Below are positions 2,593 to 63,199 of a stretch of 64,000 nucleotides of DNA, piece by piece. Position 1 is the first letter of the stretch. The number at the start of each line of letters is the position of its first letter. The position numbers and the translations under genes are program-made. Source of the stretch: Actinobacteria bacterium IMCC26256 (GTDB taxonomy: Bacteria > Actinomycetota > Acidimicrobiia > IMCC26256). The stretch is taken from contig CP011489.1 of the NCBI GenBank assembly GCA_001023575.1, positions 744,001 to 808,000 on the forward strand, written 5' to 3'. The notes beneath the pieces are model-generated. The model did no database searches. It was not told the DNA's origin and was given only the letters and a program-made list of their open reading frames with translations.

Positions 2593-3168
2593 TCAGCGGC
2601 GTTTACGGGAGAGAGGGAGAACCCTGATAGCGATGGCCCCGAAGAGTGCGCCTAGTGCTGCCCCAGCGAATACATCAGAGGCGTGGTGCATTCGCGTGTA
2701 GACCCTGCTCCCTGCAACGACTCCAGCGATTCCATACCAGAGTGCAGGGTGCTTCGAGTCTTTAGAGAGGAGAGCCGCTGCAGTAAATGCTGCTGTCGCG
2801 TGGCCAGAAGGAAATGACGATGTAACCGGACGCCGCATACCCATCGGCAATGCTTCATCGGACTCAACCTCGGGGCGCTCACGATTGAAGAGTGATTTGA
2901 GCGCACCGTTTGTTAATGCAGACTCAATGCCGAAGACTGCAGCGCCGCGCAGAATCATTGAGGGCTCTCCTCTGCGAACTCCACGCGCTGCGACGAGGAC
3001 GTTCCAGAGGAGAGAGTGGTCTGCCGCACTTGAGACGCCGTAGAAAAACTTATCCGCTACTGGGTGGCGATGGTCGCGGCACCACGCGTCAATGGCGTCG
3101 TCGAGTGAGCTAACCGCAGGAATATCTGAGGGAGTTGGGAGATTGCTCGGGAACTTCACAGCCAGCAC
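2593..3168 (-). CDS. PAP2-family membrane phosphatase
   Basis: A phosphatidic-acid phosphatase type 2/haloperoxidase-fold enzyme that removes phosphate from lipid phosphates such as phosphatidate or undecaprenyl diphosphate. All three signature motifs are present in 191 residues: KSLFNRERP (91-99), PSGH (120-123) and SRVYTRMHHASD (154-165), which supplies the catalytic histidine and aspartate. Hydrophobic segments flank them, as expected for a membrane protein. The C-terminus is basic (LSRKRR). The six-copy repeat lies just upstream of its start. Phosphatidate phosphatase next to WS/DGAT would fit triacylglycerol synthesis, but substrate is inferred only. Confidence 0.88.
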   Translation of the reverse strand: MLAVKFPSNLPTPSDIPAVSSLDDAIDAWCRDHRHPVADKFFYGVSSAADHSLLWNVLVAARGVRRGEPSMILRGAAVFGIESALTNGALKSLFNRERPEVESDEALPMGMRRPVTSSFPSGHATAAFTAAALLSKDSKHPALWYGIAGVVAGSRVYTRMHHASDVFAGAALGALFGAIAIRVLPLSRKRR

Positions 3169-3224: not shown

Positions 3225-3331
3225 AAGGGCTGTCTCTATTTTAAGGGCTGTCTCTATTTTAAGGGCTGTCTCTATTTTAAGGGCTGTCTCTATTTTAAGG
3301 GCTGTCTCTATTTTAAGGGCTGTCTCTATTT
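3225..3331. repeat. Six-copy 18-bp tandem repeat at the 3' end of the RecB-like gene
   Basis: Six consecutive 18-bp units begin at 3225, 3243, 3261, 3279, 3297 and 3315. Five are identical (AAGGGCTGTCTCTATTTT) and the last differs at its final base. On the minus strand each unit carries TAG in the reading frame of the nuclease gene, whose own stop (3326-3328) lies in the outermost unit. The array therefore looks like an expansion of the stop region. It fills most of the gap before the PAP2 gene. Confidence 0.95.
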
Positions 3332-4159
3332 GGAGGAGTTGAGTAGGTCGATGGCGTCCTGTGGGTTGCCGCCGAACTCTGGGCAGAATGGTTTGAATGA
3401 GCACCAGTTGCAGAGCGGGCCTGGCTTGGTGCGAAAATCGACCTTGGTACATGCATCGCCAATGGCATCCCATACCGCTTGGGTCTTATTCGCGACACCG
3501 CGCGACTGTTGGTCGGAGGTGGTGGCAACGATCGCTACCGGGTCTGCCAAGTAGAGCAACTGGACTTTTACGGGGCGTTTTCCGAGCGCCTCCTCAACCA
3601 TCAACGCATAGAGATTTACCCCAGCGAGGCGCTGATCTTGGTAGCGAGGTCCAGGGGCTTTACCGGTCTTATAGTCACTGATTATTAACTCGTCATCGTC
3701 GTTTAGTTCTAGACGGTCGATGACTCCGCGAACTGTTGCTCTACCGATATTTGCTTGCAGTCTGAGCTCGAGGCCGATGGGGCGAATGCTCGATGGATCC
3801 TCTAGTTCGAAGTATTTGTAGACGAGTCGCTCGGCCTCTTCGTAGAACGAGCCCCACTGCTCCTCGGTGAGGTTGAGCCCTGTGAAGTCTGGATCATTTA
3901 CGAGTTCAGTGCGCGCAGTAGCAAGGTCCGCAAGCGCGTTAGTGATACTGCGTTGATCGGGTGCGCGCATCATCAAGTGCTCGAGAGCGAGATGCACGAG
4001 GGTGCCCTTGCTGGCGGCGGGCGATGGCTCCTGGGGAAGCCTGTCGACATACGAGAATCGAAAAGCCAGAGGGCAGGACTGAAACTGACTAATGCTGCTC
4101 GGCGAGATTGATTTAGGGGCCTGAACAGGTATGGGCGCAGCTGGGGATGTCGTTGTCAT
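3326..4159 (-). CDS. PD-(D/E)XK nuclease, RecB/Cas4-type with probable Fe-S cluster
   Basis: A single-domain RecB-family nuclease of 277 residues. It has an N-terminal cysteine in FQSCPLAFRF, the catalytic segments GVIDRLEL and ISDYKTGK (the PD-(D/E)XK core), then QxxxxNLY-like YQDQRLAGVNLYAL (RecB motif), and a C-terminal CNWCSFKPFC triplet. One plus three cysteines is the pattern of the 4Fe-4S cluster in AddB and Cas4 nucleases. I use the internal ATG at 4159, where family similarity begins; an open frame continues upstream to 4255. No CRISPR or addA partner is nearby, so it is probably a stand-alone repair nuclease. It ends in the six-copy repeat. Confidence 0.85.
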   Translation of the reverse strand: MTTTSPAAPIPVQAPKSISPSSISQFQSCPLAFRFSYVDRLPQEPSPAASKGTLVHLALEHLMMRAPDQRSITNALADLATARTELVNDPDFTGLNLTEEQWGSFYEEAERLVYKYFELEDPSSIRPIGLELRLQANIGRATVRGVIDRLELNDDDELIISDYKTGKAPGPRYQDQRLAGVNLYALMVEEALGKRPVKVQLLYLADPVAIVATTSDQQSRGVANKTQAVWDAIGDACTKVDFRTKPGPLCNWCSFKPFCPEFGGNPQDAIDLLNSSK

Positions 4160-4285
4160 AGGGGGAGGGTACCCACACGCTGGGACGCATGCTTCGAATG
4201 TCGCGAGAATCCTTAGGGGGCTAACCTCACCTGAGACGATAAGCAGGGTCGACAAACTCTGTAGGGCAACTATTTAGGGGGATCA

Positions 4286-5290
4286 ATGAAGGTAGACGGA
4301 GGGCTCACGCCAATCCTTAAGGATGTGCCCGCAGCGGCTCGTTCTCTAGAAGAGGTTGGTTATGCGGGGGCGTGGACAGCCGAGACGGCTCATGACCCAT
4401 TCTTTCCCTTGCTAATTGGAGCAGAGCACACAACCACTCTCGAGCTCGGGACCGGTATTGCAGTGGCATTCGCGCGCAATCCGATGAACCTTGCCAACAT
4501 TGGATGGGATCTACAAGCCTTCTCGGGTGGGCGTTTCATGCTCGGGCTCGGTAGCCAGATCAAACCACACATCGAGAAGCGTTTCTCAATGACATGGTCT
4601 CAGCCTGCCGCTCGGATGCGCGAGTTGATCCTTGCAATGCGCGCGATCTGGGCATGCTGGAACGAAGACGTACCACTTCAGTTCGAGGGGGAGTTTTATA
4701 GGCACACGCTTATGACTCCTTTCTTCAACCCGGGCCGCAACCCCCACGGGAACCCGCGTGTATTTCTCGCAGCAGTGGGTGAGCGTATGACGGAGGTTGC
4801 TGGGGAGGTCGCCGATGGAGTAATCGTCCACGGTTTTACAACTGAGCGTTATATGCGCGAGGTAACAATGCCGGCGCTCGCGCGCGGTTGGGAGAAGAGC
4901 GGTAAGAGTCGTTCGGAGTTTGAGTTATCAGGCCCGATGTTTGTAGTTACGGGGACCACCGAGGAAGAGATGGCTCAAGCGCGCGCTGGTACTTGCCAGC
5001 AGATCGCGTTCTATGGATCCACACCCGCGTATCGGGGGGTCCTCGAACTCCATGGTTGGGGGGATCTACAGCCAGAGCTCAACCGACTCTCAAAACTGGG
5101 CGAGTGGGTAGAGATGGGCTCCCTAATCGATGACGAGATGCTCGACGCCTTCGCAGTTGTTGGCGAGCCCGACGACATTCCGCGCCTCATGCTCGAGCGC
5201 TACGGCGACTTACTAGACCGCATCTCTTTCTACGCTCCATACCGCTCCGACCCAGAGGGCTGGGCCAGCGTGATTGCTGGTTTTAAATAG
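4286..5290 (+). CDS. LLM-class F420-dependent oxidoreductase
   Basis: A 334-residue TIM-barrel of the luciferase-like superfamily, which in actinobacteria uses reduced F420 or FMN. Recognisable segments are the N-terminal LEEVGYAGAWTAETAHDPF, LELGTGIAVAFARNP, GGRFMLGLGSQIKPHI, and the later GEVADGVIVHGFTTERY. It resembles the TIGR03617-type group with unknown substrates. AGGGGGA lies about 5 nt before the ATG. Short gapped duplication surrounds its stop codon. It converges on the alpha/beta hydrolase gene with 16 bp between the stops. Confidence 0.85.
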   Translation: MKVDGGLTPILKDVPAAARSLEEVGYAGAWTAETAHDPFFPLLIGAEHTTTLELGTGIAVAFARNPMNLANIGWDLQAFSGGRFMLGLGSQIKPHIEKRFSMTWSQPAARMRELILAMRAIWACWNEDVPLQFEGEFYRHTLMTPFFNPGRNPHGNPRVFLAAVGERMTEVAGEVADGVIVHGFTTERYMREVTMPALARGWEKSGKSRSEFELSGPMFVVTGTTEEEMAQARAGTCQQIAFYGSTPAYRGVLELHGWGDLQPELNRLSKLGEWVEMGSLIDDEMLDAFAVVGEPDDIPRLMLERYGDLLDRISFYAPYRSDPEGWASVIAGFK

Positions 5291-5310
5291 GGCTGTTTTT
5301 AAGTAGTTAG
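5281..5310. repeat. Short duplication across the LLM oxidoreductase stop codon
   Basis: TTTTAAATAG (5281-5290, ending in the stop codon) is followed 16 bp later by TTTTAAGTAG (5297-5306). The core AAATAGGG also starts the 19-bp units at 1920 and 1939, and TTTTAAAT followed by RRGGCTGTT recurs before trmD. It lies in the 16-bp gap between two convergent genes. Confidence 0.45.
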
Positions 5311-36356: not shown

Positions 36357-36386
36357 CTCATTGAAACGCCGCTCATTGAAACGCCG
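36357..36386. repeat. Perfect 15-bp tandem duplication over an LLM gene stop
   Basis: CTCATTGAAACGCCG occurs at 36357-36371 and 36372-36386 with no mismatch. On the minus strand the TGA stop (36375-36373) lies in the inner copy and a second in-frame TGA in the outer copy, 15 bp later. Confidence 0.9.
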
Positions 36387-37284
36387 GCAGAACCTCTGTA
36401 GCGAACCACTCGATTGCTTCGGTATCGAATGGTGCCCGTACGGCTAAGTTGATCTGCTGCGCGCCGGAGTCAATGTACGCGCCTACCTGATCGAACATCT
36501 GGCTAGCGCTTCCCATAAGCACCCCTGGCCTTACTCCCTCGCTCATCTTGTCGAACTGAGCAAGAAGAGACGCCTCATTCAACGCTATGCCGACATTTAC
36601 GCTTCGAAATACCTCAGATGGGTCTCGACCCAACCGTTCGCAATGCGCGTCCAGAACTGAGTTTTTATGTGCGAATACCTCTGGCGAGATGAATGGAACA
36701 TTCCAGCCGTCAGCGCGTTGCGCTGCGATACGTAGCGTTACCTTCTCGCCTGACCCGCCGACCCAGATCGGTAAGCGACGCTGTAGCGGCTTGGGTTCAC
36801 ACTGCGCGCGATCAAGGCTGAAGAACTCGCCTGAGAAATTAGATTCTTGCTCTGTCAGGAGGAGGCGAATACATGTGAGGGACTCCTCCATCATGCGCAG
36901 GCGCTCCCCGACGCTGCCGAACGGAATTCCATAGGCTCGATACTCACGTCCTAACCATCCGCCTCCTAACCCAAGCGTGACTCTTCCATTCGATAGTTGA
37001 TCGAGCGTCGCCATTGCATTGGCTAAGACCGCGGGGTGGCGGTACCCGGCAGAGTAGACAAGGCTCCCGCAGCGTACGCGAGATGTAGCGGCGCAGAGGG
37101 CAGCGTGGCTAACCACTGACTCCAGCGAGTGAGGATTACCCGATCCATCTGCAGCGTAGAAATGGTCCCAGATTGAGATCCAATCAAATCCGCTCGCCTC
37201 AATGCCGCGCCAGAGGTCAGTGAGTTCGGGAAGGCTTGTGTTCTGAAGGCCCGTATGGACTCCGAAGATCATGCTCCGAACCAT
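36373..37284 (-). CDS. LLM-class F420-dependent oxidoreductase
   Basis: A luciferase-like TIM barrel of about 303 residues. Anchors: MIFGVHTGLQNTSL, IEASGFDWISIWDHFYA, VRCGSLVYSAGYRHP, LSNGRVTLGLGGGWLGREY and LPIWVGGSGEKVTLRIAAQRADGWN, all typical of F420-dependent members. The start is ATG 37284 or 37272 (the longer frame to 37683 is antisense to the PAC2 gene and not coding). Divergent from PAC2 with 31 bp between starts. Substrate unknown. Confidence 0.85.
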   Translation of the reverse strand: MVRSMIFGVHTGLQNTSLPELTDLWRGIEASGFDWISIWDHFYAADGSGNPHSLESVVSHAALCAATSRVRCGSLVYSAGYRHPAVLANAMATLDQLSNGRVTLGLGGGWLGREYRAYGIPFGSVGERLRMMEESLTCIRLLLTEQESNFSGEFFSLDRAQCEPKPLQRRLPIWVGGSGEKVTLRIAAQRADGWNVPFISPEVFAHKNSVLDAHCERLGRDPSEVFRSVNVGIALNEASLLAQFDKMSEGVRPGVLMGSASQMFDQVGAYIDSGAQQINLAVRAPFDTEAIEWFATEVLPAFQ

Positions 37285-37303
37285 AACTGAAGGGCCGTGC
37301 CGG

Positions 37304-37309
37304 TAAGGT
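37304..37309 (+). promoter_or_regulatory. Candidate -10 box (TAAGGT), leaderless
   Basis: TAAGGT ends 6 nt before the ATG of the PAC2 gene, with no Shine-Dalgarno between them, so transcription should start at the ATG. Confidence 0.45.
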
Positions 37310-37315
37310 GCGCAG

Positions 37316-38155
37316 ATGCTCTCGATTGATGTCTGGCCAGATATGAATGACCCGGTGCTTGTCGTTGCTCTCACGGGTTGGATCGATGCCGGTCTAGCGG
37401 GCGCTAGTGCGGCTGACGCGATTATCCGCTCTATGGCCGCTGCGCGCGAGTTCGGAACGTATGACCTAGGTGATAGCGCAGACCTGAGAACCACTAGACC
37501 TCTCGCACTCCTTGATGGCGGGGTCACTAGGCGTATCGAATGGCCGCACCTGACTTTTACCGGTGGGCGTGTCGGCCGTGACGTCGTTGTTCTGACCGGG
37601 CCGGAGCCATGTCTGGAGTGGCAGCGCCTCACCGAGGAGATTGTGACTGCCGCTGAGCGACTTGGAGTGAAGATGGCCGTCATGCTCGGAGGGATGCCAT
37701 CGCCTGTCTCTCATCGTCGGCCAGTCCCCGTTCTTGCATCTGCGACGAGTCGCGCTCTCGCTCAAGAGGTCGGTGCACTTCGGGGTGACTATCACGGACC
37801 AACGGGGCTCCAGAGTGTCCTACAGGTAGCGCTTGGAGATGTTGGTATTGATGCAGTGGGTCTATGGGCTCAGGTTCCTCACTACATCTCGGGTACACCG
37901 TCTCCGCCTGCAGTGCGCGCTTTACTCGAGCGGCTGCGTGATATTGCTCTTATCTCAGTAGATCTGCGTGACCTCGATCGACAGGCGCTGCTTTATGCCG
38001 CCCAAGTAGAGGAAGGCTTGAGCGATCGCCCAGATGTTGCAGGGCTCGTAGAGGCGCTCGAGTCGGTAGATGAGGGAGATATCTCTGGTGACGACATTGC
38101 ACGCGAGATTGAGCAATTTCTCCGCAGTGACGGCGCTGATCCTGAGGCTGATTAA
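37316..38155 (+). CDS. PAC2-family protein (proteasome assembly chaperone type)
   Basis: A 279-residue PAC2-family protein. Anchors are DPVLVVALTGWIDAGLAGASAADAI, the FTGGRVGRDVVVLTGPEP strand and GMPSPVSHRRPVPVLA. Actinobacterial members are widespread ATP-grasp-neighbour proteins of unclear function; in archaea and eukaryotes relatives help assemble the 20S proteasome. No proteasome genes are in the window. The stop codon sits in a degenerate 12-bp duplication. Confidence 0.85.
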   Translation: MLSIDVWPDMNDPVLVVALTGWIDAGLAGASAADAIIRSMAAAREFGTYDLGDSADLRTTRPLALLDGGVTRRIEWPHLTFTGGRVGRDVVVLTGPEPCLEWQRLTEEIVTAAERLGVKMAVMLGGMPSPVSHRRPVPVLASATSRALAQEVGALRGDYHGPTGLQSVLQVALGDVGIDAVGLWAQVPHYISGTPSPPAVRALLERLRDIALISVDLRDLDRQALLYAAQVEEGLSDRPDVAGLVEALESVDEGDISGDDIAREIEQFLRSDGADPEAD

Positions 38156-60105: not shown

Positions 60106-61440
60106 ATGTTTGATTCACTCTCTGGCCGATTTGATGCGATCTTCACCCGAATGCGCGGTCGCGGCCGTCTTAGTGATGCAGATATAGATGAAATAGCACG
60201 GGAGATTCGCCTTGCTCTCCTCGAGGCAGACGTAAATGTTCGCGTAGTAAAAGACTTCATCTCCCGCATTAAGGAGCGCGCTACTGGCGCTGAGGTCGCA
60301 AAGAGTCTCACGCCCGCTCAGCAAGTGATCAAGATTGTTCACGAGGAGTTGGTCGCAACACTTGGGTCAACGACGGTGAAGTTGACGATGAACCCAAAGC
60401 CGCCGACAGTTGTAATGCTGAGCGGTCTTCAAGGCTCCGGAAAAACAACGGCAGCCGCAAAGTTGGCGCGACTCCTCAAAAGTCAAGGTCTTCAGCCTCT
60501 ACTAGTGGCTGCTGATCTTCAACGCCCTGCCGCGGTGGAGCAGCTCCGTGTGCTCGGAAAAAGAATTGATGTTCCTGTTTTCTATGCCAAAGAAGGCTCG
60601 CCTCAGAATGCTGTAGATGTCGCTCTCTCCGCATTTGATGAGGCTGCGCGATTAGGACGAAATGTGATGATTGTTGATACTGCGGGTCGCCTGCAGATCG
60701 ACGAGGCGCTCATGGACGAACTCGTAGCAGTTCGAGACATTGTGAAGCCGACTAACTCCCTGCTGGTCGTCGATGCGATGACAGGGCAAGAGGCCGTGAA
60801 CATAGCGGTCGCATTCGATCAAGCAATCGGACTCGATGGAGTAATTCTCACCAAGATTGATGGTGATGCTCGAGGTGGCGCTGCACTCTCGGTCAAGGCC
60901 GTTGTAGGTAAGCCAATCATTTATGTTGGTACCGGAGAGACGCTTGAAGACTTTGAGCCCTTCCACCCGGATCGAATGGCGAGCCGCATTCTTGGAATGG
61001 GTGATGTGCTCTCGCTCATTGAGAAAGCAGAGGCAGCCTTTAGCGCAGAGGATGCGCAGGCAGCCGAGGAGAAGATGCGCTCGGGGCAGTTCACCCTTGA
61101 CGACTTCCTTGATCAGATGCAGCAGGTCCGCAAGATGGGTCCGATCGGAAACATCATGAAGATGCTCCCTGGAGTCCCCAAAGAACTCAAGGGCGCTGAG
61201 GTCGATGAGAGTCAATTGGGGAGGGTTGAGGCCATCATTAGGTCGATGACAGCGCAGGAACGCCGTGACCCATCTGTGATCAACGGGTCTAGACGCTCAC
61301 GCATCGCTAAGGGCTCAGGCACGAGTACTCAAGAGGTAAATGCGCTACTGAAGCAGTTCAAGACCGTGCAGCAGATGATGAAGTCGATGTCTCAGGGGAA
61401 GAAGCCCAGGCTCCCAATCCCTGGGATGCCCATTAGGTAA
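60106..61440 (+). CDS. ffh: Signal recognition particle protein Ffh
   Basis: The GTPase that binds SRP RNA and signal sequences. About 444 residues: N domain, G domain with GLQGSGKTTAAAKLA (G1), DTAGRLQIDE (G3) and TKIDGDARGGAAL (G4), then the Met-rich M domain FLDQMQQVRKMGPIGNIMKM and MMKSMSQGKK. The ATG 60106 is preferred over the 60058 frame. A 19-bp repeat follows its stop. Confidence 0.97.
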   Translation: MFDSLSGRFDAIFTRMRGRGRLSDADIDEIAREIRLALLEADVNVRVVKDFISRIKERATGAEVAKSLTPAQQVIKIVHEELVATLGSTTVKLTMNPKPPTVVMLSGLQGSGKTTAAAKLARLLKSQGLQPLLVAADLQRPAAVEQLRVLGKRIDVPVFYAKEGSPQNAVDVALSAFDEAARLGRNVMIVDTAGRLQIDEALMDELVAVRDIVKPTNSLLVVDAMTGQEAVNIAVAFDQAIGLDGVILTKIDGDARGGAALSVKAVVGKPIIYVGTGETLEDFEPFHPDRMASRILGMGDVLSLIEKAEAAFSAEDAQAAEEKMRSGQFTLDDFLDQMQQVRKMGPIGNIMKMLPGVPKELKGAEVDESQLGRVEAIIRSMTAQERRDPSVINGSRRSRIAKGSGTSTQEVNALLKQFKTVQQMMKSMSQGKKPRLPIPGMPIR

Positions 61441-61480
61441 GGCGGGTAGGTAGACCGGGTGGGTAAGGCGGGTAGGTAGA
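61436..61480. repeat. 19-bp direct repeat at the ffh stop
   Basis: GGTAAGGCGGGTAGGTAGA occurs at 61436-61454 and 61462-61480, identical, 26 bp apart. The first copy contains the TAA stop of ffh (61438-61440). Confidence 0.85.
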
Positions 61481-61560: not shown

Positions 61561-61628
61561 AGGCTGACAGAGTTACTCCCTGAGAAACTGGGGAAGATGC
61601 GATTCGAGATTGTGATCGCCAGAAGTGA

Positions 61629-61660
61629 GCCAGTAGTTAGCCAGTAGTTAGCCAGTAGTG
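61629..61660. repeat. Three 11-bp tandem units in the rpsP upstream region
   Basis: GCCAGTAGTTA at 61629 and 61640, and GCCAGTAGTG at 61651. The units lie 64-95 bp upstream of the rpsP start, possibly overlapping its promoter. Confidence 0.8.
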
Positions 61661-63148: not shown

Positions 63149-63199
63149 TAAATGAGGCTGTTTTAAATGAGGCTGTTCTAAATGAGGGTGTTTTAAATG
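63149..63199. repeat. 15-bp repeat array of mini-ORFs directly before trmD
   Basis: Units at 63149, 63164 and 63179 (TAAATGAGGCTGTTT, with C for T at the end of the second and G for C in the third) run into TAAATGCGG, whose ATG is the trmD start. Read in the trmD frame the array is ATG AGG CTG TTT TAA, ATG AGG CTG TTC TAA, ATG AGG GTG TTT TAA, then trmD. The rimM stop is 8 bp before it. Confidence 0.95.

Follow-up and report, generated by a model that had tools for sequence, protein, structure and literature searches.

An 18-bp tandem array repeating the TAG stop codon of a RecB-like nuclease gene is probably an intergenic minisatellite

In Actinobacteria bacterium IMCC26256 a gene for a RecB-like nuclease ends in a tandem array of 18-bp units that brings six TAG codons into the reading frame of the gene, raising the question of whether such a run of stop codons is a safeguard or a by-product of how the array arose. 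The array lies at positions 3225–3331 (minus strand) of the 64,000-nucleotide stretch of DNA analysed here (the window). We regard it as highly probable that this is an intergenic minisatellite, or variable number tandem repeat (VNTR), produced by in-situ tandem duplication, and that its TAG codons are a by-product with no detected back-up role. Tandem Repeats Finder (TRF) reported a period of 18 and 5.9 copies of AAAATAGAGACAGCCCTT (unit in minus-strand reading) with 100% matches and a score of 214, the top score of the window. Together with three-frame translation this bore out the first-pass annotation, which had described six 18-bp copies, five identical and one nearly so, with six in-frame TAG codons: five units are exact and the sixth carries a single difference, T to G at base 3332. 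The TAG of the first unit is the nuclease's own stop, the open reading frame (ORF) at 4255..3326 (minus strand) closing AAA TAG, and reading on in this frame gives SSK*RQPLK*RQPLK*RQPLK*RQPLK*RQPLK*RQPLL..., six TAG codons with the gene's own stop included. In the second frame TAA closes each unit (NRDSP*), and the third frame has no stop across the array and repeats IETALK. For comparison, 424 kb of the studied genome (G000; complete, 2.46 Mb, single contig) were sampled for arrays. Dinucleotide shuffles of this sample yielded no array with a score of at least 60, so the array at 3225–3331 is not due to chance; it is among the longest and most uniform of the sampled sequence. At 18 bp × 5.9 and 100% identity it has the head-to-tail arrangement, unit length (approximately 9–100 bp) and high identity by which VNTRs and minisatellites are recognized.

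The array would have originated when 18 bp running from the final base pairs of the nuclease gene through its stop codon into the adjoining spacer were duplicated in tandem, repeatedly, likely by replication slippage or unequal recombination. Such a duplication would be tolerated because the upstream protein is unchanged when the stop codon is included, and array length could afterwards drift by whole units. Gain or loss of a unit leaves the nuclease protein unaltered, and six in-frame TAG codons are present because the unit contains the gene's own stop and is 18 bp long. That a lost stop would add a few residues until the next TAG, as had been predicted, follows from the sequence. The near-perfect identity of the units supports the recent expansion also proposed at first pass, and nothing seen requires the gene conversion that had been suggested beside it.

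The periods of arrays were informative as to the in-frame TAG codons. Among coding arrays the periods fell 41/4/5 by remainder after division by three (0/1/2; n=50), and among intergenic arrays 15/17/14 (n=46), with no bias to multiples of three; this pattern is one of frame constraint inside genes and none outside. Intergenic arrays (TRF score of at least 40, genes being taken from a simple hexamer caller with approximate boundaries) overlapped a stop codon in 12 of 37 cases, about twofold above the 16% given by random placement (p=0.012), and 17 of the 37 lay near a stop, against 24% by random placement (p=0.004). The simplest reason for arrays being commoner at stop codons is that a stop-containing duplication keeps the protein intact. 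Back-up termination, in which tandem TAG codons were selected to halt readthrough of a leaky nuclease stop, would also account for the six in-frame TAG codons that do exist here, but is very improbable. Fail-safe stops should appear as an enrichment of in-frame stops downstream and as frame-keeping periods in arrays over stops; however, within six codons past a stop the stop frequency in the studied genome was 0.037 in frame and 0.057 and 0.043 out of frame, two congeners gave no clear in-frame excess either, and the period was divisible by three in only 2 of the 12 stop-overlapping arrays. Selection for additional downstream stops was likewise not found in eubacteria in a systematic study (PMC6764699). 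Periods, stop-overlapping arrays and downstream stop frequencies thus give no support to a special meaning of the in-frame TAG codons, which look incidental, a by-product rather than a safeguard.

Copy number was compared with a congener (G003) approximately 94% identical to the studied genome, with substitutions at approximately 6%. Length differed in 11 of 16 aligned intergenic arrays, mostly by whole units, and intergenic indels of at least 6 bp were read as gain or loss of units (some judged by eye). Several of the 16 came from stretches fetched for the sequence motif described below (L131, L058); excluding two motif arrays, 9 of 14 differed. The 11 comprise all four comparable arrays of the window and seven elsewhere. 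Approximately 2 kb from the nuclease array, a 16-bp unit at 5276..5306 (plus strand) contains the stop of a luciferase-like gene (4286–5290) and is present in 1.9 copies, and in 4.8 in the congener; the encoded C-terminus stays (A/D)GFK* at either copy number, so that a stop-containing duplication is seen directly to leave the protein intact. A 13-bp unit at 61434..61478 (plus strand), also over a stop codon, has 3.5 copies and 5.5 in the congener, an intergenic 11-bp unit at 61618..61659 has 3.8 and 3.0, and a 15-bp unit (TAAATGAGGCTGTTT) at 63149..63199, over the start codon of the next gene, has 3.4 and 2.3 (30 bp shorter). The array at 3225–3331 falls outside the contigs of this congener, which stop at window position ~3211 and restart at 4568, contig C77 beginning approximately 14 bp short, and a search for the nuclease gave only a weak match, located elsewhere, in G003 and no match in the congener G001. 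The contig break near the array might suggest an assembly or sequencing artefact, but this is extremely improbable: at 107 bp the array is short by the standards of assemblers, the studied genome was assembled as a single contig, and similar arrays occupy orthologous positions in independent congener drafts.

The 37 intergenic arrays of the sample correspond to an intergenic density of 9.3 per 10 kb and, by extrapolation, to approximately 215 arrays genome-wide. Shuffled sequence gave 0.25 per 10 kb, three mid-GC controls (samples of 60, 60 and 50 kb) gave 0, 0 and 1.7 (37 versus 1 arrays, p=6e-7), and two congeners of equal GC gave 5.7 and 8.1. Within the order and phylum, genomes of high GC varied widely in density; because some of these have densities similar to that of the studied genome, the excess is clear only relative to the mid-GC controls. 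Loss of mismatch repair was not supported as its cause: MutS was not found in any of the 13 order genomes searched and NucS was detected in 11 of the 13, so neither distinguishes the genus. Gene content and kinship suggest that the studied genome belongs to the Acidimicrobiia; no literature on intergenic tandem repeats in this class was found. One genome listed as a congener, G002, had sampled contigs of approximately 70% GC, versus 55.6% for G000, G001 and G003, and its label may be doubtful.

Several findings weigh against interpretation of the array as a minisatellite formed by in-situ duplication. Variation in copy number was seen at sister arrays and not at the array itself, for which variation between strains is likely. 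The genus carries more arrays than the mid-GC controls, an excess for which neither MutS nor NucS accounts. Finally, recurrence of a shared core, TAGAGACAGC, exceeds what sequence-blind slippage predicts. Several unlinked loci carry this core in arrays of 17/18-bp units, and at two of these loci the array is coding, in a different frame at each. The exact sequence TAGAGACAGCNC is present at ten loci of the genome (a 65-bp repeat at 217k being counted once), and four of the nine other than the nuclease array are 17/18-bp arrays (568.9k, 891.4k, 1716.4k and 2275.46k; two intergenic, two coding), with p ~3e-7 at 0.7% array coverage and ~3e-4 at 4%, an approximate value for intergenic DNA. With base rates this rough and a motif chosen from one array, the enrichment is a lead.

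Two explanations of the shared core were considered. In the first, tandem duplication favours particular sequences in this genus: some enzyme or replication feature would amplify a core near TAAATAGAGACAGC in situ at unlinked sites, both genic and intergenic, with a period of 17/18 bp. A single copy is present in a congener at 568.9k (G001) and at 891.4k (G003, where the array has one unit fewer), which points to amplification in place rather than insertion. No k-mer was clearly above the shuffle maximum in the unbiased array set, so any preference is not general; most arrays lack the TAGAGACAGC core, and pairs of arrays were more similar than shuffled pairs, in part owing to loci that had been retrieved because of the motif. 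We consider sequence-preferring duplication unlikely. In the second, several copies of a DNA or RNA motif with a function (core TAGAGACAGC, consensus about TTTAAATAGAGACRGCC) are maintained, for instance to bind a protein as an array or to act as a 3' untranslated region (UTR) element. The proportion of TAGAGACAGCNC loci in 17/18-bp arrays speaks for such a motif, and the arrays at 211.7k and 2275.46k recur in congeners with copy number changed, but two loci lie within coding sequence in different frames or strands, orientation to genes is inconsistent (including at the 2275k locus beside tRNA-Trp), and the unbiased set offers no k-mer in its favour, making a functional motif quite unlikely. 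Its variant as a strand-specific 3' element was rejected, motif counts having no clear strand bias. The CTGTCTCT start resembles the Tn5 mosaic end; contamination by transposase adapters was rejected, the match stopping after 8 bases and the arrays differing in sequence between independent assemblies.

Further details were recorded at individual core loci. At 211.7k (L130) a related, degenerate array of 16–17-bp units in approximately 4 copies adjoins the stop of an ORF (L130 4729–5133, minus strand), with more copies in G001 (C16, L144/L181). The array at 2275.46k (L058 5457–5493), with the same 15-mer, is upstream of tRNA-Trp (L058 5299–5372, minus strand) and has 2 copies in G000 and G001 and 4 in G003. 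Two coding arrays have a TAGAGACAG core: that at L044 8884–8937 encodes IETALE-type repeats in a short ORF and is single-copy in G001, and that at L133 10401–10471 encodes the C-terminus of a glycosyltransferase-like protein, which has SID-type repeats there. At 217k the 65-bp repeat (L130 10481 and 10546) contains TAGAGACAGCGCCGGC, with one core copy in the aligned stretch of G003.

As to the wider class, the array at 3225–3331 is best seen as one ordinary intergenic minisatellite among the many of its genus. Like the bacterial VNTRs used in multiple-locus VNTR analysis (MLVA) typing, the arrays consist of 9–18-bp head-to-tail units with near-perfect recent copies, lie mostly outside genes and differ by whole units between close relatives; unlike them, they reach an intergenic density far above mid-GC controls and some share a core. 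Mycobacterial interspersed repetitive units (MIRU) form a dispersed family whose tandem units are longer, are homologous and lie at gene junctions with stop and start codons; the position at such junctions and an actinobacterial host are shared, whereas units here measure 9–18 bp and for the most part have no relation to one another. In the tandem repeats of Borgs, coding units are divisible by three and intergenic units mostly are not (PMC9879509). The same coding versus intergenic pattern of periods is seen here, but Borgs are archaeal and extrachromosomal, and the present arrays are on a bacterial chromosome and tolerate mismatches. The TAACTGA direct repeats of Beggiatoaceae are a fixed heptamer found mostly directly before start codons (PMC4679880); they resemble the present arrays in having a common core in tandem at many intergenic places, sometimes over stop codons, and differ in that units here vary by locus and tend toward stop codons. 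Tandem duplication that is tolerated accounts for the striking run of in-frame stops as its by-product, strain-level work in this genus of actinobacteria gains rapidly evolving markers, and the genus excess and shared core allow the cause of the duplications to be tested by comparing close genomes.

The nuclease gene itself (3326..4255, minus strand; TAG stop at 3326–3328, with which the array's series of in-frame TAG codons starts) encodes a PD-(D/E)XK protein (PF12705, E=3.8e-34), confirming the RecB-like assignment. The array occupies the spacer between it and a downstream gene on the same strand for a PAP2-superfamily phosphatase (2593..3168; PF01569, E=6.4e-19). This neighbourhood is also present in other families of the order, and no comparable array was found 3' of the nuclease in those relatives. 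An intrinsic terminator, promoter or structured RNA element in the spacer received no support, since a site scan found no promoter- or terminator-like site, the RNA fold was no better than shuffles (z=+1.3) and an Rfam search gave no family at threshold. In most relatives of the order the nuclease has a C-terminal tail, often GPGTxIEPTLPL, which G000 and G002 lack. A frameshift in this ancestral tail could have given rise to the unit: the tail of relatives ends ...GPGTMIETELPLA, IETALK stands at the corresponding position in the open frame of the array with an offset of 4 nt, and a relative (G008) has ATCGAGACCGAGCTC where the studied genome has ATAGAGACAGCCCTT. This derivation is rather improbable, as the match is 5 codons long and the best chosen among approximately 30 relatives, the tail of G002 is also short and has no such frame downstream, and the same 15-mer at 2275k is left unexplained. 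The array as sole cause of nuclease truncation was rejected, G002 having a similarly short tail and no array.

Additional sister arrays were present in the window. These were a 14-bp unit in 2.0 copies at 31467..31494, at the 3' end of an ORF (30162–31472); an 18-bp unit in 2.9 copies at 32241..32292, which lies between convergent genes and begins at a stop codon; and a 15-bp unit in 2.0 copies at 36357..36386, at the 3' end of an ORF on the minus strand (36373–37683).
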